A DNA stretch of 64,000 nucleotides from Gautieria morchelliformis (taxonomy: Eukaryota > Basidiomycota > Agaricomycetes > Gomphales > Gomphaceae), in assembly GCA_015179125.1 (NCBI GenBank), contig WHVA01000041.1, forward strand, positions 310,001 to 374,000. The letters run 5' to 3'. Below the pieces are notes generated by a model. It did not search any database. It saw nothing but the letters and a program-made list of their open reading frames with translations, and was not told the DNA's origin. Below, piece after piece: positions 5,995 to 41,780 of this stretch. Every line of letters starts with the position of its first letter. Position 1 is the first letter of the stretch. Made by a program: the position numbers and the translations under genes.

Positions 5995-6684
5995 TGTTAC
6001 CGTAACTCGAGATTTCCGCTAAGTCGGAACTGGAAAGGACAGCGGCTTCAACTTATAGGTTGCACCCCCAATGAACTATCGTCCTAAGTATTTCGGAATT
6101 GAGTCGGAAGGCGGAAAGTACTGAACCAAAGGTTTGGTCGGAACTTAAGTCGGAACTGAGGCGGAAGGTGGAAGGCGGAAGGCGGAGAGACTGAGATTTT
6201 GCTAGACTCGCTGTGCTAAGAACAGGAGATGGAGCGAAGGAAATCAAGTATCGAAGGTGATTATCTGATTGCAGAATAATAGACATACATGAGGGGGTTT
6301 TTATACAAAGCGCAGAACAACAAGTAATGGTATGATACTAAGCAAATTCCGGAGGAAGCGGAAGTCGAGTACAATGTGTGGGAACTAACTATTGGGAACA
6401 ATGGGACTACAAGGGGGGTTCAGGGTAAGGTAGAACAATGGCAAAGAACAAGGCGGGTGAGTACAATAGGCATCGGAAGAAATGGACTACGGAAATGGTA
6501 TCTTGCTGTGCTCAGGGTCGAGTACGGGAGCCGGTATCTGGAGGTGGCCAGGGGTACTGAAACAAGGGAGGAGGGTTCGGATATTGCGGATGTTGCGGAT
6601 GTCGAAATAGAGTCGGAAGTGGTGCGGAGGTGGTGCGGAGGTTATGCAGGGGTGGCGGAGATGATTGATCGGAACAGTCGTAAC
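5995..6684 (-). repeat. Fam1 5' LTR (690 bp)
   Basis: LTR of the minus-strand Fam1 Gypsy. On the sense strand it begins TGTTACGACTG and ends GGTAACA. It matches the solo LTR at 18738-19429 and the interrupted LTR at 18668-20060. The shared R/U5-like part is recognised by GGCTTCAACTTATAGGTTG. It is packed with the pentamer TTCCG/CGGAA. Its outer end forms the last codons and stop of the neighbouring zinc-cluster gene. Confidence 0.9.
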
Positions 6685-7623
6685 ATGAACTCCACATCCG
6701 CCCGGTTCATCCTATCGTTCGCCGCTCTAAACTCCCTCAACAACTCACACACCTTTTCCCCAACCTTGCCAACCTTCTGTCCCACGTCCCTCACTGCCGC
6801 TATCAACTCCCTCACCTCCGCACTTTGCTCCGACCTTTTCACCTTCTTGTCTTTCTTCGCCCTCCGACCTTCCACCTCGGTTTCCTTCCCCTCACTCTGC
6901 CTCGCTCCCTCTGTTCCCTTTCCCTTCTCCTCGCTCATCCTCGCTTCCATTCTCTCCACCCTCATCTCGAGGTTCCGCTCGACCCAGTCGCTCGAGTCGT
7001 TGTCATCATCAACCTCGTCTCGAACCTTGGCCCCTTTCCTTGGCCTCGGTCCATCCTCGGCCTCCTCGCTCCTCACTTGCTTCTTGCTCACTGCACCCGC
7101 CTGACCTTTTCCTGAGGTCGCCTTGCTGCGGCGACCTTGGGCGATGCTACAGCCCAAGGAACGGGTCCTGCACCACACGCAGGCACCCTGGTCGGCGAGG
7201 CCGAAGTCGAGACTAACGGCCTGAAGGCACGTATAGTCGCGCTCTTCGCAGCGCGCGCACCTCGCCTCGGCCTTGGTCGCAAGCTGCCACTCGCGAGGTC
7301 CCCCGTCGGTGAGCTTGTACCCGTATAGGGACAAGTCGGTCGGGTGGTAGGGAAATAACATGCACTTATACTAGACAAATCAGCAGCGCCCATGACCAGA
7401 CAACTACGGTACTCACCTTCTTTCCACTCGGCCCCTCCTGCCACGGTTGCCGCATGTCAATGGCCCCCGTCTCATCAATTGGCAGTACGCCAACCTCGGG
7501 TCGATCCTTGGGCATAACCTTGCCCGAGGCTCCATTCTCCTCAGACAACAATGTCTGGTCGAACCCGTTTGTCGCACTGTTCTCGTCGACGGCTAAGTTG
7601 AAGAGGGCTTGAGGGTGCACCAT
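6642..7623 (-). CDS. Zinc-cluster / coiled-coil protein, antisense gene beside an LTR
   Basis: Two-exon gene: exon 1 is 7417-7623, then a 52-bp GT-AG intron, then exon 2, 7364-6642; splicing keeps the frame. About 310 residues. After ~75 residues comes a paired cysteine motif C-x2-C-x6-C-x15-C-x2-C-x6-C (from CARCEERDYTC to CVWCRTRSLGC), resembling a widened Zn2Cys6 cluster. Then follow a basic Lys/Arg-rich region, an acidic patch and a long charged helical, probably coiled-coil, C-terminal half. The last ~15 residues and the stop lie in the Fam1 LTR that inserted at 6684. Downstream on the opposite strand are a polypurine tract and LTR (7782-8357), so this gene lies antisense inside an LTR element. 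DNA or RNA binding is an inference; no known function is claimed. Confidence 0.7.
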
Positions 7624-7781
7624 ACTTCGTTGGCACTTGGGTTCGCTGCATCCTACCCACCCTTTTATCTAACCTCGGCTACGATTTAAGCTTCGCCTTT
7701 CCGGCTACTTAACATCGGGCCGGGATCTAGATTCAAGGAGAGGCGAACCTTGCTCATATTACGGCCTCGAGGGTCTCGGCC

Positions 7782-7796
7782 ATAAGGAGGGGATAC
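7782..7796 (+). promoter_or_regulatory. Polypurine tract of the 7797-8357 LTR element
   Basis: ATAAGGAGGGGATAC lies directly against the TG of the LTR at 7797. Its position and purine content fit a plus-strand primer for reverse transcription. The same arrangement occurs beside the LTRs ending at 20060 and 34338. Confidence 0.7.
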
Positions 7797-8357
7797 TGTA
7801 AGGACCCGGCCTTTGGCCGGTTACTTACCGGTAAAACCTTCTTCCGAGCCCCAGCCTTGTGATATTCGTGCCCGAGTACACCTGATCCTTATCCCCGCCC
7901 GAGCCCGAGCCCGAGCTTGAGTTCATATCTGACCTTGATCCCATGCCCGTATCCCCTTAGTTACTGATTCCGCTCCATCACGCATCATTCGTATATTACC
8001 TCGCCCTGACCTCGGTCTCCTGACCTCGCCCTGACCTCCACTAATATGTTCGCCCCTGACTTGCACCCTCGTCCGTATATAACCCCCTTGTATGCATTCC
8101 TACTCCTCAGTCTGAAAATCAACTATCGTATCCCTTCGATCCCTAGCTAGTTTCTAAGCCTCGCCTCTTAAGCCAAACCTCGCCTCTTATTCATTTGCCT
8201 CCGAAGTTGGGACTCGTGCGTAGGGTCGGCGCAGCACATAAGCTGAAGCCAAGTCCCTCTCTGACTTCCCCATCCAAACCTCGCCCCCTAACCTCGGACC
8301 TTGCCTCGGGTCTTGTTCCCGACCTCGGTCAACCCTACGACGGATCGTACTGTAACA
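7797..8357 (+). repeat. LTR (561 bp) of a Gypsy-like element carrying the antisense zinc-cluster gene
   Basis: The segment begins TGTAAGGACCCGG and ends GTACTGTAACA, giving TG...CA ends. It is preceded by a polypurine tract, so it is the 3' LTR of a plus-oriented element whose interior lies to the left. That interior is reduced to the antisense gene at 6642-7623, cut by the Fam1 insertion. No partner LTR or target duplication could be identified. The sequence is rich in CCTCG/GACCTCG repeats and contains no visible coding. Confidence 0.6.
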
Positions 8358-9884: not shown

Positions 9885-12800
9885 ATGGACCATAATCAGC
9901 AGATTGCCAAAGCTTCCACTTCATCCAGGCATGGCGAAACGCCGCCGATCGTAAATCCGTCTTTGGTACCGTCAACGGTAAGCAAAGTTTATTCCGGGAC
10001 CCTAAATAATCAAAGGGACTGACTATCCCATGAATCTTTATGAACAGGTCACACCACTGTCTACTTCTGGACTTGCCGCAGGGAGAACGGACATAGAATC
10101 TACCCCCACGACGCAAACCGATCAGCATCAGCGGGCCGGGCTTAGGTTGCTTTCACTCGGTAATGTTTTCATACCTGCTAGCTACTACCTTCTGACTCCC
10201 TCCGCAGATGGCGGCGGAATCCGTGGCTTGTCCGAACTCATCATACTACAGGAAATCATGCGACGAATCCAGCTCGAAGAAGGGCGACCCACCGCCCCCC
10301 TTCCTTGTGAATATTTCGACCTTATCTGCGGTACGAGTACAGGCGGGTAAGTTACTTTCTTCTCGATCGCCGTCGTTCACTAATACGTTCCATGCAGACT
10401 CATAGCACTCATGCTGGGCCGCCTTTGCCTGCCCGTAGATAAAGCGATCGATGCCTATGGCACATTTGCCGAGCAAGTCTTCTCGGAGAAGAAACTATTT
10501 TGGAAGGACGGAAGGTTCAAGGCTAGCAATTTGGAGAACGCTATCAAGGCAATCATCCAGGAATCGACTGGTGACCCTGACGCACGCATGTTCGATCCAA
10601 GACCGAGCAGTGGAGTGTGCAAAACGTATGTTCATTCTGCAGCTCTTTCTTGGCTTGGTACATAGCTGACCGTAGCCTAGTTTCGTCTGCGCGATGCCCG
10701 CAAATAGCATCAGGACACCCCGCCTCTTTCGTACGTACAGCGTCGGCAAGTACGAATCATTCGACTGCGCGATATGGGAGGCCGCCCGTGCTACGTCTGC
10801 CGCCCCTACTTTTTTCAAACCGATTTTCATCGGCAAACCACCTACGCGTGAACCCTTTGTTGATGCTGGCCTGGGTTGCAACAATCCAATCAAGCAAATC
10901 CTCAGAGAAGCAGAACATATCTTTCCGCTTGAACATATTGCTTGCATTGTCAGCATTGGCACTGGACATGTCACCACTGCCAGCCTGCCGGCATCTAGTC
11001 TGCTTAATAACATCATACCACTAAGTGTAGCTGAGGTATTGAAGAAGATCACCACAGAATGTGATACAACAGCGGAGGAAACTGAGCAGCGCTTCAGATC
11101 TGCACCGAACGTCTACTTCCGGTTCAGTGTGGAGCAGGGAATGGAAAGTGTAACATTAGCAGATTGGGAAAGGTCACCTGAGGTGACAACGCAAACATTA
11201 TGCTATCTTGGGGGGCCAGTGGTAGATAAGAGGGTAACGGCTGCTGCCATTGCTCTCAGGGAGCGCCGGGAAGCGATACCTGCCGCATACCTCAGTGCGT
11301 ACAATGTGCAATGGCTCCCAGCTGATGACATATGTTCTATGGTAGACACTGTAGGCGGAGGCATTGTCAGCCAACTATCAGGTAAACAGAGAGCTTGCCG
11401 TAAGGCTTGTCCTCCACCAACATGCAGATTTACCGGAAGAGTTGATATCCTTTTGCAACTTGAGGAATACTTCTTCCCAAAACAGACATCTACTGCTAAG
11501 GAGGAACAGCACATCTTTGTCTTGTATGGGCTTGGTGGGGTGGGAAAAACACAGATTGCATTGACATTCATTGATAAGTTTTATCAACGGTGGTGTGGTT
11601 TACCTGGCTTTGTTATGCTTTGACTAATCTGTTTTATACTTAGCTTTTGGAGGGTCTATTACATGGATGCAAGTAGGATGTCCACTATAAACTCTGGCCT
11701 AGAGGACATTGCTCAGGAAGGGGGTATTGGGGAGACTGCTGAGGATGCTCTTCTCTGGCTGTCTGGACAACACCAAGCGTGGCTGCTCTTCCTGGACAAT
11801 GCTGATGACACAGATATAAACCTTCAAAAGTACTTCCCAGCATGCAAGCATGGAAACATCATTGTGACAAGTCGCAATGTGGAGTGTCGTGTGCATGCAC
11901 CCAGCTCCAACTGTCATGTGTCGGGCATGAATCCTGATGAAGCAATTCATTTGCTCCTCATGTTCTCTACAGCCAAAGGTTCCACAAAGGATCATGACCT
12001 GGCAGCTCTGATTGCCAGAGAACTTGGTTACCTTGCCCTTGCCATTGTACAAGCAGGTGCCTATATCTCAAAGGGGTGCAGCTTGAATGAATACCTGAAT
12101 ATTCTCCCAAAGGATCGGGTTCAGTTGATGAGCAAGCACTCTGTACAGATGATAGATAGCTATCAGTGGGGAGTATATGCAACATGGGAAATCAGCTTTA
12201 AAAGGCTAAGTCCCAAAGCAGCAAGCCTGCTACACCTGTGTGCATTTCTGCATTATAGGGGTATTTCCAAGAGCATATTTCAGAGGGCAGCTCTCAGAGA
12301 TCCAGATGGGCAATTTTATGATGCAAAACAGTTTCTACATAACTTTCAAACCACAGATGGTAGCTGGAGTGACTTTCAATTTCAGGAGGTCATTAATGAA
12401 TTAAGTTCTTACTCATTGATCACCACTAATGAGGCAGATGATACATTTTTCCTTCATCCACTAGTACATGCTTGGGCTGGAGACAGACTGGGGGTGGCAG
12501 AGCAGGAGCATAACCAACGGTGCATGATGCAGATACTAGCACTTTCTATCCCATTTGAAAATAGTACAGAGGACTATGCCTTTAGGAGGACTCTTCTCCC
12601 TCATATTAATGAGCTACATAAGAAAGGTGCAGATCCAGACATGGCAAATAAATTTGCACAAGTGTTTAACAAGGCAGGGCAATGGATGGATGCTCAAGAG
12701 CTGCAGGTCAAGGTCATAGAGGCAAGGAAGAAGGACCTTGGTGAGGAACATCCTGACACATTGGCTGCCATGGGCAGCCTTGCTGCAACCAATTTCAAGA

Positions 12801-15652
12801 TGGGGCAGTGGAAGGATGCTTTGGAGATGGAGATTAAAGTCATGGAGGGAAGCAAGAGGGTCCTTGGTGAGAAGCATCCCGACACACTGACAAGCATTGG
12901 CAACCTTGCTGCAACCTATCTGTGTCTGGGCCAGTGCAAGGATGCTCAGGAGCTGAAGATTAAAGTCATGGAGGCAAGGAAGACCGTCCTTGGTGAGGAG
13001 CACCCTGACACACTGAATGCCATGGGCAGCCTTGCTGCAACCTATCGGAGGCTGGGCCAGTGGAAGGATGCTCAGGCACTAGATATTAAAGTCATGGAGG
13101 CAAGGAAGAGGGTCCTTGGTGAGGAGCATCCTGACACACTGGATGCCATGGGCAGCCTTGCTGAAAGCTATCGGAGTCTGGGCCAGTGGAAGGATGCTCA
13201 GGAGCTCGAGATTAAAGGTATAGAGGCCAGGAAGAGGGTCCTTGGTGAGGAGCATCCTGACACCCTAAATGCCATGGGCAGCCTCGCTGAAACCTATTGG
13301 AGTCTGGGCCAGTGGAAGGATGCTTTGAAGCTGGAGATTAAAGTCATGGAGGCAAGCAAGAGGGTCCTTGGTGAGGAGCATCCTGACACACTGGATGCCA
13401 TGGGCAGCCTTGCTGCAACCTATCGGAGTCTGGCCCAGTTGAAGGATGCTCAGGAGCTGGAGATTAAAGTCATGGAGGCAAGCAAGAGGGTCCTTGGTGA
13501 GGATCATCCCAACACACTCACTGCCATTGGGAACCTTGCTAAAACCTATTGGAGTTTGGGCCAGTGGAAGGATGCTCAGGAGCTGGAGATTAAAGTCATG
13601 GAGGCAAGCAAGAGGGTCCTTGGTGAGGATCATCCTGACACCCTAACTGCCATGGGCAGCCTCGCTGAAACCGATTGGAGTCTGGGCCAGTGGAAGGATG
13701 CTCTAGAGCTGCAGATTAAAGTCATGGAGGCAAGCAAGAGGGTCCTTGGTGAGGAGCATCCTGACATGCTAAATGCCATGGGGAGGCTTGCTGCAACCTA
13801 TCGGAGTCTGGCCCAGTTGAAGGATGCTCAGGAGCTGGAGATTAAAGTGATGGACACAAGGAAGAGGGTCCTTGGTGAGGAGCATCCCAACACACTGACT
13901 GCCATGGGCAACCTTGCTAAAACCTATTGGAGTCTGGGCCAGCGGAAGGATGCTCAGGAGCTGGAGATTAAAGTCATGGAGGCAAGCAAGAGGGTCCTTG
14001 GTGAGGATCATCCTGACACCCTAAATGCCATGGGCAGCCTTGCTGAAACCTATCGAAGTCTGGCACAGTTAAAGGATGCGCAGGAGCTGCAGATTAAAGT
14101 CATGGAGGCAAGCAAGAGGGTCCTTGGTGAGGAGCGTCCTGACACCCTTAATGCCATGGGCAGCCTTGCTGTAACCTATCGGAGTCTGTGGCAGTGGAAG
14201 GATGCTCAGGAGCTGCAGATTCAAGTCGTGGAGGCAAGGAAGAGGGTCCTTGGTGAGGAGCATTCTAACACACTGACCGCCATCGCCAACCTTGCTGCAA
14301 CCTATCGGAGTCTGGGCCAGTGGAAGGATGCTCAGGAGCTGGAGATTACAGTCATGGAGGCAAGGAAGAGGGTCCTTGGTGAGGAGCATCCCAACACACT
14401 GACTGCCATGGGCAGCCTTGCTGCAACCTATCGGAGTCTGGGCCAGTGGAAAGATGCTCAGGAGCTGGAGATTAAAGTTATGGAGGCAAGGAAGAGGGTC
14501 CTTGGTGAGGATCATCCCAACACACTCACTGCCATGGGAAACCTTGCTGCAACCCATTGGTGTCTGGGCCAGTGGAAGGATGCTCAGGAGCTGGAGATTA
14601 AAGTTATGGAGGCAAGGAAGAGGGTCCTTGGTGAGGATCATCCTGACACCCTAACTGCCATGGGCAGCCTCACTGAAACCTATTGGAGTCTGGGCCAGTG
14701 GAAGGATGCTCAGGTGCTGGAGATTAAAGTCATGGAGGCAAAGAAGAGGGTCCTTGGTGAGGATCATCCTGACACACTGGATGCCATGGGCAACCTTGCT
14801 GCAACCTATCAGAGTCTGGGCCAGTGGAAGGATGCTCAGGAGCTGGAGATTAAAGTTATGGAGGCAAGGAAGAGGGTCCTTGGTGAGGATCATCCTGACA
14901 CCCTAACTGCCATGGGCAGCCTCGCTGAAACCTATTGGAGTCTGGGCCAGTGGAAGGATGCTCAGGTGCTGGAGATTAAACTCGTGGAGACAAGGAAGAG
15001 GGTCCTTGGTGAGGAGCATCCTGACACACTGACTACCATGGGCAACCTTGCTGCAACCTATCAGAGTCTGGGCCAGTGGAAGGATGCTCAGGCACTGCAG
15101 ATTAAAGTCATGGAGGCAAGGAAGAGGGTCCTTGGTGAGGAGCATCCTGACACACTGACTACCATGGGCAACCTTGCTGCAACCTATCAGAGTCTGGGCC
15201 AGTGGAAGGATGCTCAGGCACTGCAGATTAAAGTCATGGAGGCAAGGAAGAGGGTCCTTGGTGAGGAGCATCCTGACACACTGACTACCATGGGCAACCT
15301 TGCTGCAACCTATCAGAGTCTGGGCCAGTGGAAGGATGCTCAGGCACTGCAGATTAAACTCATGGAGGCAAGGAAGAGGGTCCTTGGTGAGGAGCATCCT
15401 GACACACTGACTACCATGGGCAACCTTGCTGCAACCTATCAGAGTCTGGGCCAGTGGAAGGATGCTCAGGCACTGCAGATTAAACTCATGGAGGCAAGGA
15501 AGAGGGTCCTTGGTGAGGAGCATCCTGACACACTGACTGTCATGGGCGGCCTTGCTGCAACCCATCGGAGTCTGGGCCAGTGGAAGGATGCTCAGGAGCT
15601 GGAGGTTCAAGTCATAGAGGTAAGCACCAGGAGGAGCATCCCAACATACTAA
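9885..15652 (+). CDS. Patatin-like phospholipase / NB-ARC / TPR protein (fungal NLR-like)
   Basis: Six exons: 9885-9977, 10048-10159, 10208-10346, 10398-10625, 10681-11589, 11644-15652. All introns are 47-70 bp GT-AG, and the frame closes to 1,829 residues. N-terminal patatin domain: oxyanion motif DGGGIRG (69-75), nucleophile in GTSTGG (Ser112), catalytic Asp in DAGLG (Asp252). NB-ARC: P-loop GLGGVGKT (474-481), Walker-B-like LFLDNADD (~542-549), IIVTSR, and a winged-helix region ending near HPLVHAWAG. The C-terminus is about 23 TPRs of 42 residues (~840-1820) of the kinesin-light-chain-like type (LGEEHPDTL, ATYRSLGQWKDAQ). By analogy with fungal and animal STAND proteins it likely senses a ligand through the repeats, oligomerises with nucleotide, and releases lipase activity, possibly in non-self recognition or regulated cell death; that role is inference. 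The repeat array ends in a partial unit, so the C-terminus is ragged. ATG 9885 was chosen as the first start in frame with the spliced patatin domain. Confidence 0.9.
12684..15640 (+). repeat. 126-bp tandem array encoding ~23 TPR units
   Basis: Direct repeats of 126 bp (42 codons) inside exon 6 of the NLR-like gene. Units share the core CTTGGTGAGGAGCATCC. Units around 15000-15520 are almost identical to each other, differing by one or a few bases, while the first three (12684-13060) are clearly diverged. This points to recent expansion or gene conversion at the 3' end. Opposite-strand open frames across the array are by-products of the repeat composition. Confidence 0.92.
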
Positions 15653-18667: not shown

Positions 18668-20060
18668 TGTTACGTCTCGGAAATCCCGGAGCTCAGAACT
18701 ATAAAGGACAACGGCTTTGACTTATATCTTGCGCCCCTGTTACGACCATTCATTTCCGACTTCCGACCCTCAGTTCCGCCACTCCTTCCGCCCCTCCGAT
18801 AGTTCCACCACACGTTCCGCCCCTCCGACATTTCCGACATTCCGCCCATTGTACATTTCCCTTGTTCTTTCGACTCTATTACTCGGACCCACCGGACCCG
18901 TTTCATCGTTCATCAAAACCATATATCTGGTCACCCTTGTAGTTCGTTGTCAGATATGTTTTCCCGACCCCTTGTTCTTTGCCATTGTTCTACCTTACCC
19001 TGAACCACCCTTGTAGTCCCATTGTTCCCAATTAGTTAGTTCCCACACATTGTACTCGACTTCCGCTTCCTCCAGAATTTGCTTAGTACAATACCATTAC
19101 TTGTTGTTCTGCGCTTTGTATAAAACCCCCTCATGTATGTCTGTTATTCTGCAATCAGCTAATCACCTTCGATACTTGATTTCCTTCGCTCCATCTCCTG
19201 TTCTTAGCACAGCGAGTCAGGCAAGATCTCAGTCTCTCTCTCAGCCTTCCGTCTTCCGCCTTCCGCCTCAGTTCCGACTCAAGTTCCGACCGAACCTTTG
19301 GTCCAGTACTTTCCGACTTCCGACTCAGTTCCGAAATACCTAGGACGATAGTTCATTGGGGGCGCAACCTATAAGTTGAAGCTGCTGTCCTTTCCAGTTC
19401 CGAATTAGTGGAAATCTCGATACGTAACAGCCCCTGATGAACTACCATCCTAAGTATTTCGGATTTGACTTCTGGATGTCGACCAAGGCCGACGTCGGGA
19501 AGAGAGTGCTGATGGTTGGAGGTTGGAGGATAGAGGTCGGAAGAGGCGGAAGACAGAGTATCGAAGGCAGGGAGAGAGACAGAGCTTGCAAAACTCGCTA
19601 TACTAAGAACAGGAGAAAGTGCAAAGGGATTCACGTATCAAAGTCGATTATCTGATTGCAGAAACGGAGACATACAAGTGGGGGTTTTATTCAAAGAGCT
19701 GAGGCAACAAGTAATAGTGTAGTACTAAGCAAATTCGGGAGGGAGCAGGAATTGAATAGACATATGGGGTCAGTAACTAATGCGGAACAAGGGGATAACA
19801 AGGGGGTGCAGGGTAGAGTAAGAACAATGGCAAAAGAACAAAGATGCGTAAGTATAATGGACATTGGAACAAACGGAAATACAGAAATGGTATCTTGCTG
19901 TGTTCAGGGTCGAGTATGGAGGCCAGTGAGTAGAGTCAACCAGGGGTACTGAAGAACAAGGGGTTGAGGTCATGGGTTGCGAAGGTTGCGGAATAGAGTC
20001 AGAGGTGCTGCGGAGGTGTTCCAGAGGTGGCGGAGATAGTTGAGTGGCATGGTCGTAACA
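18668..20060 (-). repeat. Fam1 3' LTR, interrupted by another Fam1 solo LTR
   Basis: Outer LTR of about 696 bp in two parts (18668-18737 and 19435-20060), with TGTTACG/CGTAACA ends. A polypurine tract follows on its sense side (20061-20072), making it the 3' LTR of a minus-oriented Fam1 element with interior to the right. Flanks 18663-18667 and 20061-20065 differ, consistent with an LTR still joined to interior sequence. Confidence 0.85.
18738..19429 (+). mobile_element. Fam1 solo LTR nested in a Fam1 LTR
   Basis: 692-bp LTR with TGTTACG...CGTAACA ends and a perfect 5-bp duplication GCCCC (18733-18737 and 19430-19434). It sits in opposite orientation within the R/U5-like part of the older LTR. 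Two dense TTCCG arrays lie near 18750-18850 and 19245-19335. Confidence 0.95.
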
Positions 20061-20072: not shown

Positions 20073-20183
20073 CATGGTCGAGCCCCGCGAGACCATAAGT
20101 CAGATCACGTGACCTGTGAATAACGCGTTGTTGGAGTTCGAAAGATAGGCAGGGAAAAGAATGTGTCTCAATCCATATCCATC

Positions 20184-21403
20184 ATGAGCTCCCCAATCAA
20201 TTTCTCTAAAATGACCAGCACCCAAATGAAGCAACATTTCACCGATAAGCTTGCGGAGAATGAATTGGTGGAAAAGCATGAGGCCGAGGAGGCTGAGGAG
20301 GCCACTCAGAAGGAGAAGGAGTGGTTGGAGGAGGAGCGCAAGGAGGAGGAGCGCAAGGAAAAGGAATGCAAGGACCGCGAGGAGCGCGAGCACGAAGACC
20401 ATGAACGCGAGCTTGAGCGCATCGAGTGCAAGCGTGAAGAACGCGAGGCTGAAGAAGTGGCAGAGAAACTCGCGGAAGATCAAGCCGCTGCGGAAGAGGC
20501 AACCACAGAAAATGCGGCCACGGCGGAAAAAGATCACGCGGCTGCAAATGTAAGTTCCTCAGTCCATTTGATAGAGTAGGCTGGCTATTAGAACAGACAA
20601 AATTGGCAGATGTGGAAGAGATTTCCGTTCAGAGTGAGACTCCATCAGAGGACACGCTGGAAGAGACCCCAAATCCAAAAACCAAGGGCAAGGGCAAAGT
20701 GACGGTGTAGTGGTGAGCGGCGCAGGAAGAAAAACAGCGCTGGAAGGAGGTGCACCGAGCAGGTGTCAAGAGGTCGGCACCAGAGGAGGACGGCCCATTG
20801 GAGCCTAGCTGCGAGGGCTGCTTGGAAAAGGAATTGCCGTGTGTCTGGGACCTGGCCGGGAAGGCCACCGCCTGCAACCGCTGCAAGGACGCCAAGAAGG
20901 CTTGTCCGACCCAACCTCCAACCCTCCGGCCTTCTTCTGCTTGGTCAACACTCAGGCCGTGAGCCTGTCGACCACACAGGCCTCCACAAGGAGGCAGGAA
21001 ACCCTTGTCCAGGGCGCCCAAGGCGAAGGGGGTGCAGGGGCCGGAAGTGAGCGGGAGTGGTGTGACCAGACAGGGGTGGACCGTGGATCCACTCTTGGAT
21101 ATCATGAGGACACTCTGGGGACTGCTCCAGCAGGGGGAGCAGACGCTGCGGATGTAGCATAATTTCTACAGCACGGTTGCGGATTGCCTCGGAGTCTTTG
21201 AGGACCACTTAGACCAACTCATTGCGGAGTTGCAATGGATGCAGGAGACTGAGGACTCAGAAGCGGTGGTGGACGTATTGGAGGGTGAGGTACAGGACGT
21301 GGTGAGGTTCGAGGAGAGTGATGGGAGAAACAGAAATGCGGAGGATCCAGAGGCGGATGACTGGGTGGGATTTTATGGTAACAACACCATGGATGAAGAT
21401 TAA
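20184..21403 (+). pseudogene. Zinc-cluster / coiled-coil protein, antisense to its Fam1 host element
   Basis: Gene reading away from the Fam1 LTR, antisense to the element. It begins MSSPINFSKM. Residues ~20-120 are a continuous Glu/Lys/Arg heptad-like helix. A GT-AG intron follows near 20551-20607, then an acidic and Lys-rich linker. Next is a cysteine cluster C-x2-C-x6-C-x10-C-x2-C-x6-C (CEGCLEKELPC ... CNRCKDAKKAC, near 20808-20903). The tail is acidic (VGFYGNNTMDED) and ends at 21403. The reading frame is broken in a few places, so it is scored as a fossil. Architecture and position mirror the gene at 6642-7623. Function is unknown; nucleic-acid binding through the cysteine cluster is an inference. 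Confidence 0.65.
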
Positions 21404-34338: not shown

Positions 34339-34471
34339 GTACCTCCCCCTTATGGCCCAACCCATGAGGCCATAAGCAAGATCCTGGAGATCGCTGGGGG
34401 CATGTGCATTATATAAGCTTTGTTTCATGTCTCTTTTCTTGTTTCTCCCATCACCATCAGCAAAGAATTCC

Positions 34472-34528
34472 CACATGTCTGATGCCTATGAGCTGACTGT
34501 CAATGAACTGGATGTGGAGCTCATATAA
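34472..34528 (+). pseudogene. Start of an antisense ORF next to the 33869-34338 LTR
   Basis: Short frame starting MSDAYELTVNELDVEL, at about the same distance (~130 bp) and orientation from the polypurine tract as the zinc-cluster gene at 20184. It ends after 18 residues and is followed by unrelated sequence. Interpreted as the N-terminal stub of a third antisense gene; this rests on position more than on sequence. Confidence 0.35.
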
Positions 34529-37274: not shown

Positions 37275-37497
37275 TGTTAGTAATCGGGACGATAACACCG
37301 CCGAGGCAGAGCCGGCACGCATTTAGCCGGAGGTTCGAGATCGCTCTCGACCCCGGGTTGCTGGTGCGCCGGCATCGCATCGGCACAGCAGCTCGAAGGG
37401 ATTGGTAATATAATGGACATTATAATTTGTATATAAAGGAACGATCTACTTGAGATCAAGGTAGAATATCAGATCATATTTACTCCTTCGTTCTACA
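37275..37497 (+). repeat. Fam5 5' LTR
   Basis: TGTTAGTAATCGG...TTCTACA, 223 bp, with a TATATAAAGG-like promoter element near 37430. Identical base for base to the 3' LTR as far as read. Confidence 0.95.
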
Positions 37498-37509
37498 GGT
37501 TATGGGCCC
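37498..37509 (+). promoter_or_regulatory. Primer-binding site, half-tRNA type
   Basis: GGTTATGGGCCC directly follows the 5' LTR. It is the same motif as in Drosophila copia and pairs with the anticodon arm of initiator tRNA-Met rather than the tRNA 3' end (family knowledge). It is conserved in the older copy at 28962-28973. Confidence 0.75.
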
Positions 37510-37586
37510 CGCGCATAACTAAACTACTACAAATCTAGCTTACTCCAACTACACCCTATACTCCACCAACTCAATACCGATCAACG

Positions 37587-40500
37587 ATGTCGAGTAGCAA
37601 TAACACGTACAAGATCGATCCCTTGAACGGGGATAATTACGCGGCGTGGCGCCGGCGGCTCGAGTGGATACTCGATGACTCAGATCTGTGGGACGTGGCT
37701 ATCGGCAGGGAGACGGAACCGAGACCGGCAGATGCCGACAACGTCACTGCGACCGAACAGCAGGAGATCGACGATTGGAGAAGGAAGGACAAGAAGGCTA
37801 GAAAAGAGATTTGCCTCAGAGTTGCCGATGAACAACTAGTTTACATCAATCAGACGATGTCTGCGTTTGCTGTATGGACTAGTCTACAAGCTATATTCGA
37901 ATCTAAGGGAGCAGTGGGGATTGTAAATCTCCGAAGAGATTTCTTCCGGACGCTTGCCGAGGACGGCGCGAACATGGAGGAGCACGTACGCAAGCTCCGC
38001 GGCATTCAACAGGAATTGAATGCGCGGGGACATTACATCAGTGACACCGAGTTCTCGAACACGTTGCTGACGTCATTACCAGATTCTTGGTCGGCGTTTA
38101 TTACGGCAGTAAACGCCAGTGGAGCCGGGACAACAGCTGATATATTAATAGCTCGGGTCCTCGATGAGGATCGAGCACGGAAAGCTGGATCGGCACGGCA
38201 GACGGCGCTTAAGGCGCAACAACGTCACAGACCTAGGAAAGATGACTCAGGAGCAACAAAGGGAAAGTGCCGAAATTGCGGCAAGAAGGGTCATTACGTG
38301 AAGGACTGTTGGGCGAAAGGTGGCGGCAAGGAAGGCCAAGCACCGAAATGGTTCAAATCAGGGAACAAAGAAACAGTCAAACAAGCAGAAGAAAAAGACT
38401 TCGCATTTGTATCTAAGGAGGTAGCATACAGTGCTATATCTGCATCCGACTGGCTAGCCGATTCAGCGGCAACAACACATATAGCTCGAAGCCGAAATGA
38501 TTTCGCTAGCTATGCCGAGGAACCATCGGAAATCGAAGGAATTTCACCCGGCGCGGTACTACATACACAAGGCCGAGGCACTATATACATGGAATTCAAG
38601 ATCGGTGCCAAGACGAACACGATCGAACTACGTGACGTCAAGCATGCACCGGATGCGCCGAACAACCTTATCAGCGTAGGGCGTCTGACTGATAAGGGCA
38701 ACACAGCCACTTTTTCAGGCACCGGCGTCGAATTCAAATCACGCGCCGGAGTTACCTTTGCACAGGGACAGAAGCGCGGGCGGCTGTTCTGTATGAAGGC
38801 ACGGGTCACTCGATCAGTCGAGGCACGGGACTTTGCCGCAGCGGCAAAGGGACGGTCATGGGATAAATGGCACAGGATACTAGGGCACGTCAACATAAAC
38901 TCCATAAAATTGTTGAAATCTAACGACCTAGTTACTGGACTCGAGATCGACGAGTCAAACGAGCCGAGCCAGTGCAAGGCATGCATACAAGGCAAACGGC
39001 ATGTGGAGCCATTCCCCAAAAGAGCCGAGGACACTGTAGAACAGGTCGGTGACCTGACAGTATCCGATGTATGGGGACCTGCCCAGACCGAGGGACCATC
39101 ACGTGAAAAATACTTTTATTCTTTCACGGACATCAAATCCAGGTACACGGTCATCTATTTTGGGAGCGCCAAAGATGAAGCGCTCAAACACTTCGAGACG
39201 TACAAGGCATTCCTCGAGACCCAAACAGGTCAGAAACTGAAGAGGTTTCGCTCAGATAATGGAGGGGAATATGTCAATAAGAATTTCAAGGAATTTTGTG
39301 CAAAATATGGCATTATCATGGAGACTACAGCTCCATACTCCCCAGCCCAGAATGGAATCGCCGAACGACTCAACCGAACCTTACTCGAGCACGCACGGGC
39401 AATGATATTTGCCAAGAACCTGCCTAAAATACTCTGGCCCGAGGCCGTGGCTTACGCGTGTTACATCAAAAACCGATCACCCACGCGAGCGCTTGGAGAT
39501 GACGCAACGCCGTTCCAGGCACTATTCGGCAAGAAGCCGAACATAGCACGTCTAGAGGAATTTGGGACAAATTGTTGGGTTATGGTGCCGGATCAACGAC
39601 GAGCTAAACTTGATCCAAAAGCAGAAGAACACATCTTCGTCGGAGTAGCAGAACATGCAAAAGCATGGAGGTATTACAATAAAGCCTCAAAACATGTTCA
39701 AATTTCGAGAAATATCACATTCGACGAAAATGACAACCGACTCTACCCTATCCCAGACAACGACGATGATGACACGGCACCGCTCGAGGGGGAGCACTCA
39801 CCGCGCGAGCATGTGCCGGACCCGATCACATCTACCCCACAGACGTCATCACCCCAGACAACACCCGTTCCTGATCCACCTGAACAAGCGCCAGCTCCAG
39901 AGATCCGACGGAGCGCGCGTATCACTCAGAGACCGGATTACCGGAAACTGAATAATTCAGGACGCACCGAGCAGGTTTACATAACGAGAGAAATCGTCAC
40001 TGAACCTGAGAATTACAGAGCGGCGGTATCACGAGATGATGCGCCGATCTGGGAGAAAGCGATGGAAATTGAGATGGAACAACACAAAACGTTAAGAACA
40101 TGGGAATTAACAGAACTACCACCCGGACGAATAGCTATCGGTTGCCGATGGGTATACGCCGTCAAAACGCAACCGGATGGACAATTTGATAAGGCTAAAG
40201 CAAGGGTCGTGGCTCAAGGATTCACACAGAGGCCAGGAATGGACTACTACGAGATAACTTCACCCGTGGTCAAATTCGATTCACTACGTGTTCTATTGGC
40301 GATCGCAAACACACTCGATTGGGAAATCGAAATGATGGATGTCAAAGGCGCCTACCTCAATTCAACTATAGATGAGGAGATCTACATGCGCCAGCCCGAC
40401 GGATTTGATGATGGATCTGGACGCGTTCTAAGAATATACAGAGCGCTCTACGGACTCAAACAATCGGGACGAGCTTGGCATCAGCGCTTACGCAAATTAC

Positions 40501-41609
40501 TACTCGATCTCGGCTTCCATCAAAGTACAGCCGATGAATGCGTCTACATCAGACAAGATAAGGACTCAATCGAAGTCATATCAGTATATGTGGACGACTT
40601 CGGACTATTTGCTGACTCCAAGGGAGGGATGATTAAGCTCAAGGGGGAGCTTCATGGAAAATTCCCCTTAACAGATCTAGGAGAAATGAAGAAAATCTTG
40701 GGAATTAGAGTTGAGAGGAATAGGGATGAGGGAACACTGATCATGTCTCAAGGACATTACATCGACATCATACTCGATCGATTCAACATGACAACGGCTC
40801 ATTCGGTATCTACACCCCTGCATAAAATGATCAAACTCACGACACCCATGGACTCAACAGGTCCAACTGCCGAAGTACCCTATGCCAAAGCGATCGGATC
40901 ACTCATGTATGCAGCACTCAGCACGCGACCTGATTTGGCTTTTACCGTACAACATCTGAGCCAATTCACTACTACTTACGGAACCGAGCACTGGACGGCG
41001 ATCAAGCACGCGCTCAGGTACCTCAAAGGGTCACGTGACGACGGCATAATCTTCCGACGAGACGCTGGTCTCGACCTCGAAATATTTGTCGACTCGGATT
41101 ATGCTAATAGAAACGACGCACTATCTATTAGTGGCTATGTAGCTATACTAGGAGGGGGAGCTATTGCATGGAGCTCGAAGAAGCAGCGAACGATCGCGCT
41201 ATCTACCACGGAGGCCGAATACATGGCACTTACCGAGGGCGCCAAGCAATTAATCTGGCTGAGGCGTTTCATCGAGGAACTTGGAATCGATCAAACCCAG
41301 CCCACGTCACTTCGATCAGACAATCTAGGCGCCATTACACTATCGCATGACGCAACGTATCATGCGCGTACCAAACATATCAATGTCGCATATCATTTTA
41401 TCCGTGAGAAAGTGGCCTCTCACGAGGCATCACTTACATACGTACCGACGAAGGAGAACATAGCGGACATATTTACAAAGGGATTAGACATGCACCAACA
41501 TAGGTATCTATTAGGGAAATTGGGATTTTACCGAAGGGACTTCTCGCTGAGGGGGAGTGTTAGTAATCGGGACGATAACACCGCCGAGGCAGAGCCGGCA
41601 CGCATTTAG
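37587..41609 (+). CDS. Fam5 Copia gag-pol polyprotein, 1,340 residues
   Basis: Single open frame. Order: Copia-type gag (1-~225), zinc knuckle CRNCGKKGHYVKDC (~228-241), aspartic protease with DSAATTH (~290), pre-integrase HHCC-type region KWHRILGHVNI (~427), integrase core with DNGGEYVN and SPAQNGIAERLNR (~490-650), RVT_2 reverse transcriptase (~830-1075) with YVDDFGLF (~1004) and the entry motif IGCRWVYAVK, and RNase H with FVDSDYA and STTEAEYMAL (~1165-1235). This is the normal Copia order, integrase before RT. The frame ends about 50 bp inside the 3' LTR. No gag/pol boundary signal was looked for beyond noting one continuous frame. Confidence 0.95.
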   Translation: MSSSNNTYKIDPLNGDNYAAWRRRLEWILDDSDLWDVAIGRETEPRPADADNVTATEQQEIDDWRRKDKKARKEICLRVADEQLVYINQTMSAFAVWTSLQAIFESKGAVGIVNLRRDFFRTLAEDGANMEEHVRKLRGIQQELNARGHYISDTEFSNTLLTSLPDSWSAFITAVNASGAGTTADILIARVLDEDRARKAGSARQTALKAQQRHRPRKDDSGATKGKCRNCGKKGHYVKDCWAKGGGKEGQAPKWFKSGNKETVKQAEEKDFAFVSKEVAYSAISASDWLADSAATTHIARSRNDFASYAEEPSEIEGISPGAVLHTQGRGTIYMEFKIGAKTNTIELRDVKHAPDAPNNLISVGRLTDKGNTATFSGTGVEFKSRAGVTFAQGQKRGRLFCMKARVTRSVEARDFAAAAKGRSWDKWHRILGHVNINSIKLLKSNDLVTGLEIDESNEPSQCKACIQGKRHVEPFPKRAEDTVEQVGDLTVSDVWGPAQTEGPSREKYFYSFTDIKSRYTVIYFGSAKDEALKHFETYKAFLETQTGQKLKRFRSDNGGEYVNKNFKEFCAKYGIIMETTAPYSPAQNGIAERLNRTLLEHARAMIFAKNLPKILWPEAVAYACYIKNRSPTRALGDDATPFQALFGKKPNIARLEEFGTNCWVMVPDQRRAKLDPKAEEHIFVGVAEHAKAWRYYNKASKHVQISRNITFDENDNRLYPIPDNDDDDTAPLEGEHSPREHVPDPITSTPQTSSPQTTPVPDPPEQAPAPEIRRSARITQRPDYRKLNNSGRTEQVYITREIVTEPENYRAAVSRDDAPIWEKAMEIEMEQHKTLRTWELTELPPGRIAIGCRWVYAVKTQPDGQFDKAKARVVAQGFTQRPGMDYYEITSPVVKFDSLRVLLAIANTLDWEIEMMDVKGAYLNSTIDEEIYMRQPDGFDDGSGRVLRIYRALYGLKQSGRAWHQRLRKLLLDLGFHQSTADECVYIRQDKDSIEVISVYVDDFGLFADSKGGMIKLKGELHGKFPLTDLGEMKKILGIRVERNRDEGTLIMSQGHYIDIILDRFNMTTAHSVSTPLHKMIKLTTPMDSTGPTAEVPYAKAIGSLMYAALSTRPDLAFTVQHLSQFTTTYGTEHWTAIKHALRYLKGSRDDGIIFRRDAGLDLEIFVDSDYANRNDALSISGYVAILGGGAIAWSSKKQRTIALSTTEAEYMALTEGAKQLIWLRRFIEELGIDQTQPTSLRSDNLGAITLSHDATYHARTKHINVAYHFIREKVASHEASLTYVPTKENIADIFTKGLDMHQHRYLLGKLGFYRRDFSLRGSVSNRDDNTAEAEPARI

Positions 41610-41780
41610 CCGGAGGTTCGAGATCGCTCTCGACCCCGGGTTGCTGGTGCGCCGGCATCGCATCGGCACAGCAGCTCGAAGGGATTGGTAATATAATGGA
41701 CATTATAATTTGTATATAAAGGAACGATCTACTTGAGATCAAGGTAGAATATCAGATCATATTTACTCCTTCGTTCTACA
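41558..41780 (+). repeat. Fam5 3' LTR
   Basis: 223 bp, identical to the 5' LTR; preceded by the polypurine tract and followed by TGCCT. Confidence 0.95.

Follow-up and report, generated by a model that had tools for sequence, protein, structure and literature searches.

An antisense gene for a predicted zinc-cluster protein between pol and the 3' long terminal repeat of Ty3/gypsy chromoviruses of Gautieria morchelliformis

Analysis of a stretch of 64,000 nucleotides from the genome of the basidiomycete Gautieria morchelliformis (contig WHVA01000041.1, positions 310,001 to 374,000 of the forward strand; hereafter the window) revealed three loci of an antisense gene located beside the polypurine tract (PPT) and the long terminal repeat (LTR) of retrotransposons. 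The gene is carried by three families of elements, A (locus 1), B (locus 2) and C (locus 3), and its features in window coordinates are as follows.

7797..8357, plus strand: 3' LTR of the family-A carrier at locus 1, TGTAAGG...TGTAACA, with the PPT directly before it
7785..7796, plus strand: PPT of the family-A carrier, AGGAGGGGATAC, read from the sequence
7760..7784, no strand: near-palindrome TACGGCC-N11-GGCCATA, candidate operator of locus 1
7663..7668, minus strand: TATA-like core promoter ATAAAA of locus 1
7417..7623, minus strand: exon 1 of the family-A antisense gene, locus 1, 69 codons from the ATG at 7623, followed by a phase-0 intron; a homologous exon occurs in the aligned copies
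7371..7416, minus strand: intron of locus 1, 46 nt, GTGAGT...CTAG
6686..7370, minus strand: exon 2 of locus 1, truncated, with CARCEERDYTC-x15-CVWCRTRSLGC, a basic stretch and part of a coiled coil
6642..6685, minus strand: spurious C-terminus outside the gene, reading into the LTR of a nested minus-strand gypsy element (TGTTACG start, 6685)
18668..20060, minus strand: family-B (Fam1) LTR region; the inner edge at 20060 was checked and the outer edge is that of the initial annotation
20074..20096, no strand: family-B palindrome ATGGTC-N11-GACCAT, adjoining the PPT
20184..20549, plus strand: exon 1 of the family-B antisense gene, locus 2, with a charged helix
20550..20609, plus strand: intron of the family-B copy, locus 2, GTAAGT...CAG
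20610..21403, plus strand: exon 2 of the family-B copy, locus 2, with in-frame stops and CEGCLEKELPC-x10-CNRCKDAKKAC
34351..34374, no strand: family-C palindrome TATGGCC-N10-GGCCATA
34410..34417, plus strand: family-C TATA box TATATAAG
34475..34528, plus strand: decayed start of the family-C antisense gene, locus 3, 17 codons and a stop

The initial annotation, made from the sequence of the window, had described a two-exon antisense zinc-cluster gene inside a PPT and LTR at locus 1, and this was confirmed for the exons, the intron, the motif and the LTR. The end that it gave to the gene, 6642, was wrong. Since the LTR of the nested element starts at 6685 and cuts the gene there, the stop at 6642 is not the gene's own, and the 242-residue exon 2 was ruled out as the true end. 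A copy from elsewhere in the genome, L069, is 359 codons long and its sequence continues differently past the truncation point; alignment with it left a terminal gap of 165 nt, indicating that locus 1 lacks about the last 55 codons. The layout of locus 2 mirrors that of locus 1, and the same topology, two exons and motif were found there as annotated, but the gene is not intact: four in-frame stops, seen by alignment with the uninterrupted copy L042, make it a pseudogene. The cysteine linkers, noted earlier as x15 at locus 1 and x10 at locus 2 in an agreeing topology, were seen in both motifs. At locus 3 the ATG stub lies in the same place as had been claimed, but its position is 34475 and not 34472. 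None of the three copies in the window is alive; all are relics.

The feature extends far beyond these three loci. Protein searches of the same genome (122 Mb, 1113 contigs) were scored for the best 132 of 724 candidates with gene 1 (locus 1), the best 150 of 763 with gene 2 (locus 2) and the best 99 of 1099 with the protein of a family-B copy, L070; two further genome lists held the best 150 of 4604 and the best 150 of 2819. Gene 1 gave 177 matches and 132 scored places, and among the candidates listed gene 2 gave 163 matches and the L070 protein 135, the last two lists overlapping. Position tests used one row per copy with secondary exon pieces excluded (132, 116 and 99 gene rows), and some copies are common to the 116-row (locus-2 type) and the 99-row (L070 type) sets. 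All 29 other top-scoring gene-1 places, given as loci, aligned to the gene-plus-LTR block of the window, the alignment starting at most 4 bases from the outer edge of the LTR in 27 of them. A pol tail among the best 150 was found within 20 kb of 80 of the 132 scored gene-1 places, on the opposite strand in 79 and at 620-1300 bp in 78. Similarly, 32 of the 132 have one of the 150 best reverse transcriptase (RT) matches within 20 kb, 25 of them at 3104-3259 bp and all opposite; among the remaining seven, three were opposite and four on the same strand. Listed RT within 20 kb was also found for the L070-type gene (32 of 99 places, 31 opposite, 28 at 3015-3313 bp) and the locus-2-type gene (15 of 116 places, 14 opposite, nine at 3284-3598 bp). 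The idea that homologues would lie antisense near a PPT and LTR was thus borne out for the listed places (29 of 29 adjoining an LTR, 79 of 80 opposite the pol tail), which, with their near-fixed distance from pol and their LTR adjacency, are not mostly ordinary host genes far from LTRs. The 52 gene-1 places with none of the 150 listed pol tails within 20 kb may include stand-alone copies.

Two complete elements revealed the layout of the carriers, LTR-gag-pol-[antisense gene]-palindrome-PPT-LTR, flanked by 5-bp target duplications. L069 is a complete element of 7.5 kb with LTRs 99.5% identical and the target duplication GTCAT, an open gag frame of 385 aa and an open pol frame of 1202 aa. Its pol matched RT, RNase H, integrase and chromodomain above the cut-off and a protease-like domain below it, and with this one match under the cut-off it has the gag, the pol domains with a C-terminal chromodomain and the LTRs with target duplication that mark a Ty3/gypsy chromovirus. 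The whole antisense gene is placed between the PPT and pol, with which it is tail to tail at a distance of about 100 bp. L070, a complete 8.1-kb relative of family B with LTRs 97.4% identical and the target duplication TGGCC, has long gag and pol frames and holds the antisense gene inside its LTRs. Opposite to gag-pol, downstream of pol and inside the LTRs, the antisense gene is an integral part of complete Ty3/gypsy chromovirus-type elements.

Six further stretches, chosen for long pol/RT frames without a listed gene, were read. The zinc cluster was lost in L072, in frame, and in L073, most of exon 2 was lost in L075, L071 and L076 were frameshifted downstream of the cluster, and in L074 the gene looks uninterrupted. 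Since elements with long pol/RT frames carry damaged copies, the gene is not needed in cis; it is common and dispensable in cis.

Several single copies are unusual. L072 (G000:C182), which adjoins a 1249-aa pol frame, and G000:C404:70491-70691 were identical around an in-frame deletion of just the zinc cluster region. A large dominant-negative subfamily with lost clusters was rejected, the exact junction being found at 100% in two places and less alike in two more, of 40 scored. At L083:232-4125 (G000:C139:94131-98024) a family-B zinc-cluster frame is open into a Helitron helicase (Helitron_like_N, PIF1), giving a fusion frame of 1298 aa, and L057:2436-3053 (minus strand) is apparently a recombinant, in which a family-B zinc-cluster frame is linked with a chromodomain-like end of pol. 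In L082 (G000:C804:146300-148000), also of family B, the intron reads through in frame and the unspliced product is also open.

Selection on the protein was analysed with 30 family-A and 30 family-B loci, which were the top-scoring ones, a choice that favours conserved proteins and biases dN somewhat downward; two of the family-B loci repeat a copy (L041, L063). Alignments kept only the columns present in a single natural copy (L069 or L042), and insertions were therefore not counted. For the ratio of nonsynonymous to synonymous divergence (dN/dS), stop codons and incomplete codons were masked; in family A the pairs used were those with dS over 0.05, and pairs are not tree-independent. In family A (31 copies) the median dN/dS was 0.170 in the true frame over 435 pairs, as against 1.20 and 1.09 in the shifted frames; the three frames of the opposite strand gave 1.36, 0.34 and 1.47. 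Low ratios in the codon-matched frame of that strand (0.34 and 0.33) are to be expected, since third positions are shared. A codon model of family A gave an omega of 0.184, with lnL -6461.2 compared with -6763.4 at omega fixed at 1. Divergence at codon positions 1, 2 and 3 was 0.058, 0.058 and 0.150, position 3 changing 2.6 times as fast as positions 1 and 2, and that of the intron was 0.281. All six cluster cysteines were present in 31 of 31 family-A copies, and 20 of the 31, the truncated window copy not among them, had no stop or frame-breaking gap. Family B2 (28 copies) gave a dN/dS of 0.187 over 376 pairs (median dS 1.1) and 1.12 and 1.16 in the shifted frames. The splice sites were conserved likewise, with a GT donor in 30 of 31 and an AG acceptor in 30 of 31 family-A copies (REF row not counted), and GT..AG in 27 of 28 family-B2 copies, one being without data. 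These comparisons indicate that the protein frame is under purifying selection in families A and B, and a dN/dS of 0.17-0.19 together with the retained cysteines in family A answers the doubt, raised with the original description, whether the cysteine pattern is selected. The pattern is that expected of a protein selected over a long time in active lineages, followed by the decay of single copies.

The proteins of families A, B and C are barely alike. A query around locus 3 found a family-C copy, L079. Beside a PPT and palindrome shared with locus 3 it has an ATG in antisense, a first exon that is helical and charged and, in a later frame, CSNCLRWNMAC-x7-CQDCNVQKVH, in which the sixth cysteine is absent; this copy indicates that the three families share one layout. 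The Zn2Cys6 pattern is C-x2-C-x6-C-x(5-12)-C-x2-C-x(6-8)-C, with a usual linker of 5-12. The linker of family B, 10, fits this pattern, and that of family C (L079, one copy) is 7, without the last cysteine. Against Zn_clus (PF00172; curated cut-off 21 bits) the L070 protein of family B scored E 0.0011 and 19.4 bits, and cluster fragments scored E 0.00088 and 19.8 bits (B), E 0.029 and 14.9 bits (A) and E 0.027 and 15.0 bits (C); the family-A fragment also matched Endonuclease_7 (E 0.32). The first triplet of B corresponded to profile positions 15-37 and the second to 1-13 (weak, E 1.9), and the first triplet of C to positions 17-31, and the second triplet of A corresponded to 16-34, the ordinary order. 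From these matches the two halves of the cluster may have exchanged places in B and C, as a fold with pseudo-symmetry would naturally allow, though the support is weak. After the cluster comes a basic stretch, and the protein closes with an acidic tail.

In an AlphaFold2 model of family-B exon 2 each CxxC is followed by a short helix (pLDDT about 70-80), and a coiled coil of 75 residues has pLDDT over 90 along most of its length. Foldseek comparison of this model with the PDB gave nine matches at E up to 10, namely Pho7, Leu3 (four), Gal4, Ppr1, the CBF3 complex and one unrelated complex. Eight of the nine are zinc-cluster proteins or a complex holding one, Pho7, Leu3 and a CBF3 subunit being Zn2Cys6 proteins. 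Ppr1 and three of the Leu3 chains were superposed with a root-mean-square deviation (rmsd) of 1.7-2.6 across 33-39 columns. The model supports a Zn2Cys6-like fold in family B without settling it. TRP28 (PF04195) was not matched in Pfam scans at E up to 1 or 10. PDB sequence profiles gave only weak matches, two for A1 and one for A2, none with a zinc cluster; the NCBIfam scan gave no match, and one scan of IMG/VR found no relative. Nine CxC2 matches agree with an agaricomycete host, as the initial annotation took it to be, going by the taxonomic range of that domain.

Between the promoter of the gene and the PPT, each family has a near-palindrome of the shared form GGYC-N10/11-GRCC: TATGGCC-N11-GGCCGTA in A, A[A/T]GGTC-N11-GACCA in B and TATGGCC-N10-GGCCATA in C. 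The junction, located by the PPT alone, was present in 33 of 33 family-A loci (with a shortened spacer in L010), in 28 of 34 family-B loci, where four rows are two copies listed twice, and in four of five family-C loci. In family B the right arm was lost in L067 and the left arm changed in L057 and L066, and in family C the left arm was changed in L078; for L059 and L080 this search gave only unrelated matches. Conservation of the arms compared with the rest of the promoter was 0.985/0.939 in A, 0.948/0.832 in B and 0.964/0.859 in C (24, 26 and 4 distinct copies). The half-sites differ symmetrically between families, GGCC/GGCC versus GGTC/GACC, as expected of a site for a dimer, although the difference amounts to one change in two arms, for which chance could account. 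A core promoter, ATAAAAG, precedes the ATG in 30 of 31 family-A copies (REF row not counted), and TATATAAG was found in the two family-C copies shown. In family B the core promoter is degenerate, GAAAKATAGG or GAAAGAAAGG, and upstream of it lies a palindrome resembling GGTCACGTGACC; a simple TATA box was rejected for this family, since only five of 28 rows matched and most others had GAAAGATAGG or GAAAGAAAGG there.

The feature is real and recurrent, it is under selection, and it is far more than an ordinary repeat. What was established for the gene is its position, its copy number, its strand and spacing, the conservation of its splice sites and purifying selection. The function of its product, for which the initial annotation had suggested control of element or host transcription, is predicted: these elements probably carry a self-encoded, trans-acting zinc-cluster transcription factor, antisense between pol and the 3' LTR. 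The gene is a standing component of one group of Ty3/gypsy chromoviruses in this genome, with its own core promoter and one short intron. Its antisense mRNA would be made and spliced, and the product, apparently built like a fungal zinc-cluster factor with a Cys6 cluster, a basic stretch, a long coiled coil and an acidic tail, would enter the nucleus, dimerise through the coiled coil and bind DNA through the cluster. The most likely target is the near-palindrome GGYC-N10/11-GRCC that separates the gene's own promoter from the PPT and 3' LTR, through which the protein may control in trans the antisense transcription of the family's copies, and perhaps also transcription from the LTR. Judging by its acidic tail, the protein may be an activator rather than a repressor. 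As the protein would act in trans, single copies could lose the gene and yet spread. The intron would survive retrotransposition because of its antisense orientation, the sense genomic RNA carrying only an unspliceable complement. More tentatively, we can picture an old lineage with its own Gal4-type factor, three diverged families and a matching operator as a self-contained trans switch that counts or activates copies, with the cluster halves swapped in two families and with element factors outnumbering the host zinc-cluster places found, which were 17 Zn_clus places in this genome.

Several observations weigh against a self-encoded factor of this kind. Antisense transcription and splicing are predicted from the sequence. 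A listed gene lies within 1.5 kb of only 78 of the 150 listed pol tails, and within 6 kb of only 59 of the 150 listed RT; remains of the gene were found in six of the six long-frame stretches described above and were damaged in five. Family B2 is mostly decayed, only two of 28 copies being free of stops and frameshifts, and gaps, stops or other residues leave its cluster cysteines in only 23 to 28 of the 31 rows. As regards the protein class, Zn_clus scores were under the cut-off in every family, the full family-A protein had no Zn_clus match in the Pfam scan, its linker of 15 is longer than the usual range, and its model was poor around the cluster, with no confident fold. The best Foldseek E for family B was only 0.19, with rmsd over 12 for Pho7 and Gal4, and a comparison of the A and B profiles aligned the six cysteines at an hhalign probability of only 5%. 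The spacer of the palindrome is nearly as conserved as its arms (A 0.977, B 0.913, C 0.950), and the conservation of the block may therefore have a different cause, for example plus-strand priming or a host factor. A search of the complete LTRs of L069 and L070 found no such palindrome, which leaves control of the sense promoter unsupported, although with 0.3 and 0.1 expected by chance this says little.

Among other explanations, it seems unlikely to us that the protein is a captured host zinc-cluster factor acting mainly on host genes, near or far from the insertions. Zn2Cys6 proteins are a large class of fungal host regulators, and the 17 Zn_clus places agree with such an origin, but the candidate binding site lies in the element itself, and no close host gene was among the listed matches, no search aimed at one having been made. 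We give scarcely less weight to a non-regulatory accessory acting in nuclear import, integration-site choice or cDNA priming at the PPT. The domain layout of cluster, basic stretch, coiled coil and acidic tail is that of a transcription factor, and elements with long pol frames and damaged gene copies exist, and these facts speak against an accessory for which the conserved block adjoining the PPT, its spacer nearly as conserved as the arms, and the nuclear location reported for plant antisense proteins in the portions of two papers available to us (PMC7264820, PMC11963269) could be adduced.

It is improbable that the functional product is an antisense RNA that pairs with gag-pol RNA and feeds silencing, the protein being incidental. 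Selection acts at the level of codons (dN/dS 0.17-0.19, with the faster third position in family A), and in L069 the gene lies about 100 bp from pol without overlap, so that pairing with pol would need read-through. In its favour, the available part of PMC7264820 discusses antisense transcription of this kind in elements of plants and animals. An ordinary host gene family near LTRs by chance, or a mis-annotation driven by repeats, is very improbable, and chance is ruled out for the copies examined by LTR adjacency and by the strand and spacing of pol, since 29 of 29 other top places adjoin an LTR, 27 from its outer edge, 79 of 80 are opposite a listed pol, 78 at a near-fixed distance, and the gene lies inside two complete elements with target duplications, the 52 of 132 places without a listed pol tail within 20 kb being what speaks for it.

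Elsewhere in the window, a Copia element at 37275-41780 has two LTRs of 223 bp (37275-37497 and 41558-41780) that are 100% identical and one open gag-pol frame of 1356 aa, and is very young. It is a weak control, because its pol frame extends into the LTR and leaves no space for an antisense gene. At 10676-15652 lie a patatin-like frame and, after it, a frame of 1342 aa that contains an array of a 126-nt repeat (22 TPR_10 stretches), most copies being 80-85% alike.

The plant elements Retand and Grande are known to have antisense genes between pol and the 3' LTR, and in the portions of the sources available a DNA-binding TRP28 domain is proposed for the Retand antisense open reading frame (ORF), with maize Grande gene23 and rice RIRE2 cited alongside the Retand lineage (PMC11963269, PMC7264820). 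The Gypsy antisense ORFs of this lineage, as far as those portions go, resemble the gene described here in predicted DNA binding or nuclear location, their role being unknown there. They belong to non-chromovirus plant elements with TRP28, whereas the fungal gene lies in a chromovirus and has no TRP28 match. The words 'zinc' and 'intron' are absent from the main text of the Retand paper. Among the fungi, Botrytis is an ascomycete, and an antisense gene of its Boty element that the initial annotation did not mention, brtn, is in print, the cited source reportedly being Zhao et al. 2011 in Virology. In the available parts of two citing papers, brtn appears as an additional antisense gene of the Boty-like elements of Botrytis cinerea (PMC8365987, PMC4227169). 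It is likewise an antisense gene in a fungal chromodomain-bearing gypsy element, the likeness being drawn from the description of the citing papers only. In the literature searched, no title or abstract described a zinc-cluster antisense gene in a basidiomycete element, in agreement, within the limits of that literature, with the earlier statement that no such equivalent had been described. The word 'antisense' is absent from the available parts of PMC2864245 and PMC10799480, as are 'zinc' from that of the former and 'zinc cluster' and 'zinc finger' from that of the latter.

Further likenesses are with a retroviral and with host factors. The gene for paired C-x2-C-x6-C motifs resembles Gal4, Leu3, Ppr1 and Pho7 in these motifs, the basic linker, the coiled coil, the acidic tail and a weak fold match, and differs from Gal4-class factors in being retrotransposon-encoded and under the Pfam threshold; in B and C, moreover, the half resembling the second half of the Zn_clus profile comes first. 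HBZ of HTLV-1 is spliced and of the bZIP class. It is likewise a spliced antisense gene at the 3' end of a retroelement, giving a nuclear protein with coiled-coil dimerisation, traits that are predicted for the gene here. HBZ differs as a bZIP protein of a human retrovirus, compared with a zinc cluster here. The accessible portions of the sources give its nuclear location and place its antisense promoter in the 3' LTR (PMC11963269, PMC7264820), compared with an internal promoter here. The layout is thus already known from plants and one ascomycete, and a zinc-cluster regulator with an intron, its own promoter and a candidate operator is undescribed in the literature searched. For years plant elements have been known to have antisense ORFs in this position, with no function assigned to them. 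In the present case a recognisable DNA-binding domain class, strong codon-level selection, an intron, a core promoter and a candidate site lie within a few hundred bases. The role of antisense genes in LTR elements thereby becomes open to direct testing, and the case suggests that mobile elements can have a dedicated transcription factor of their own.

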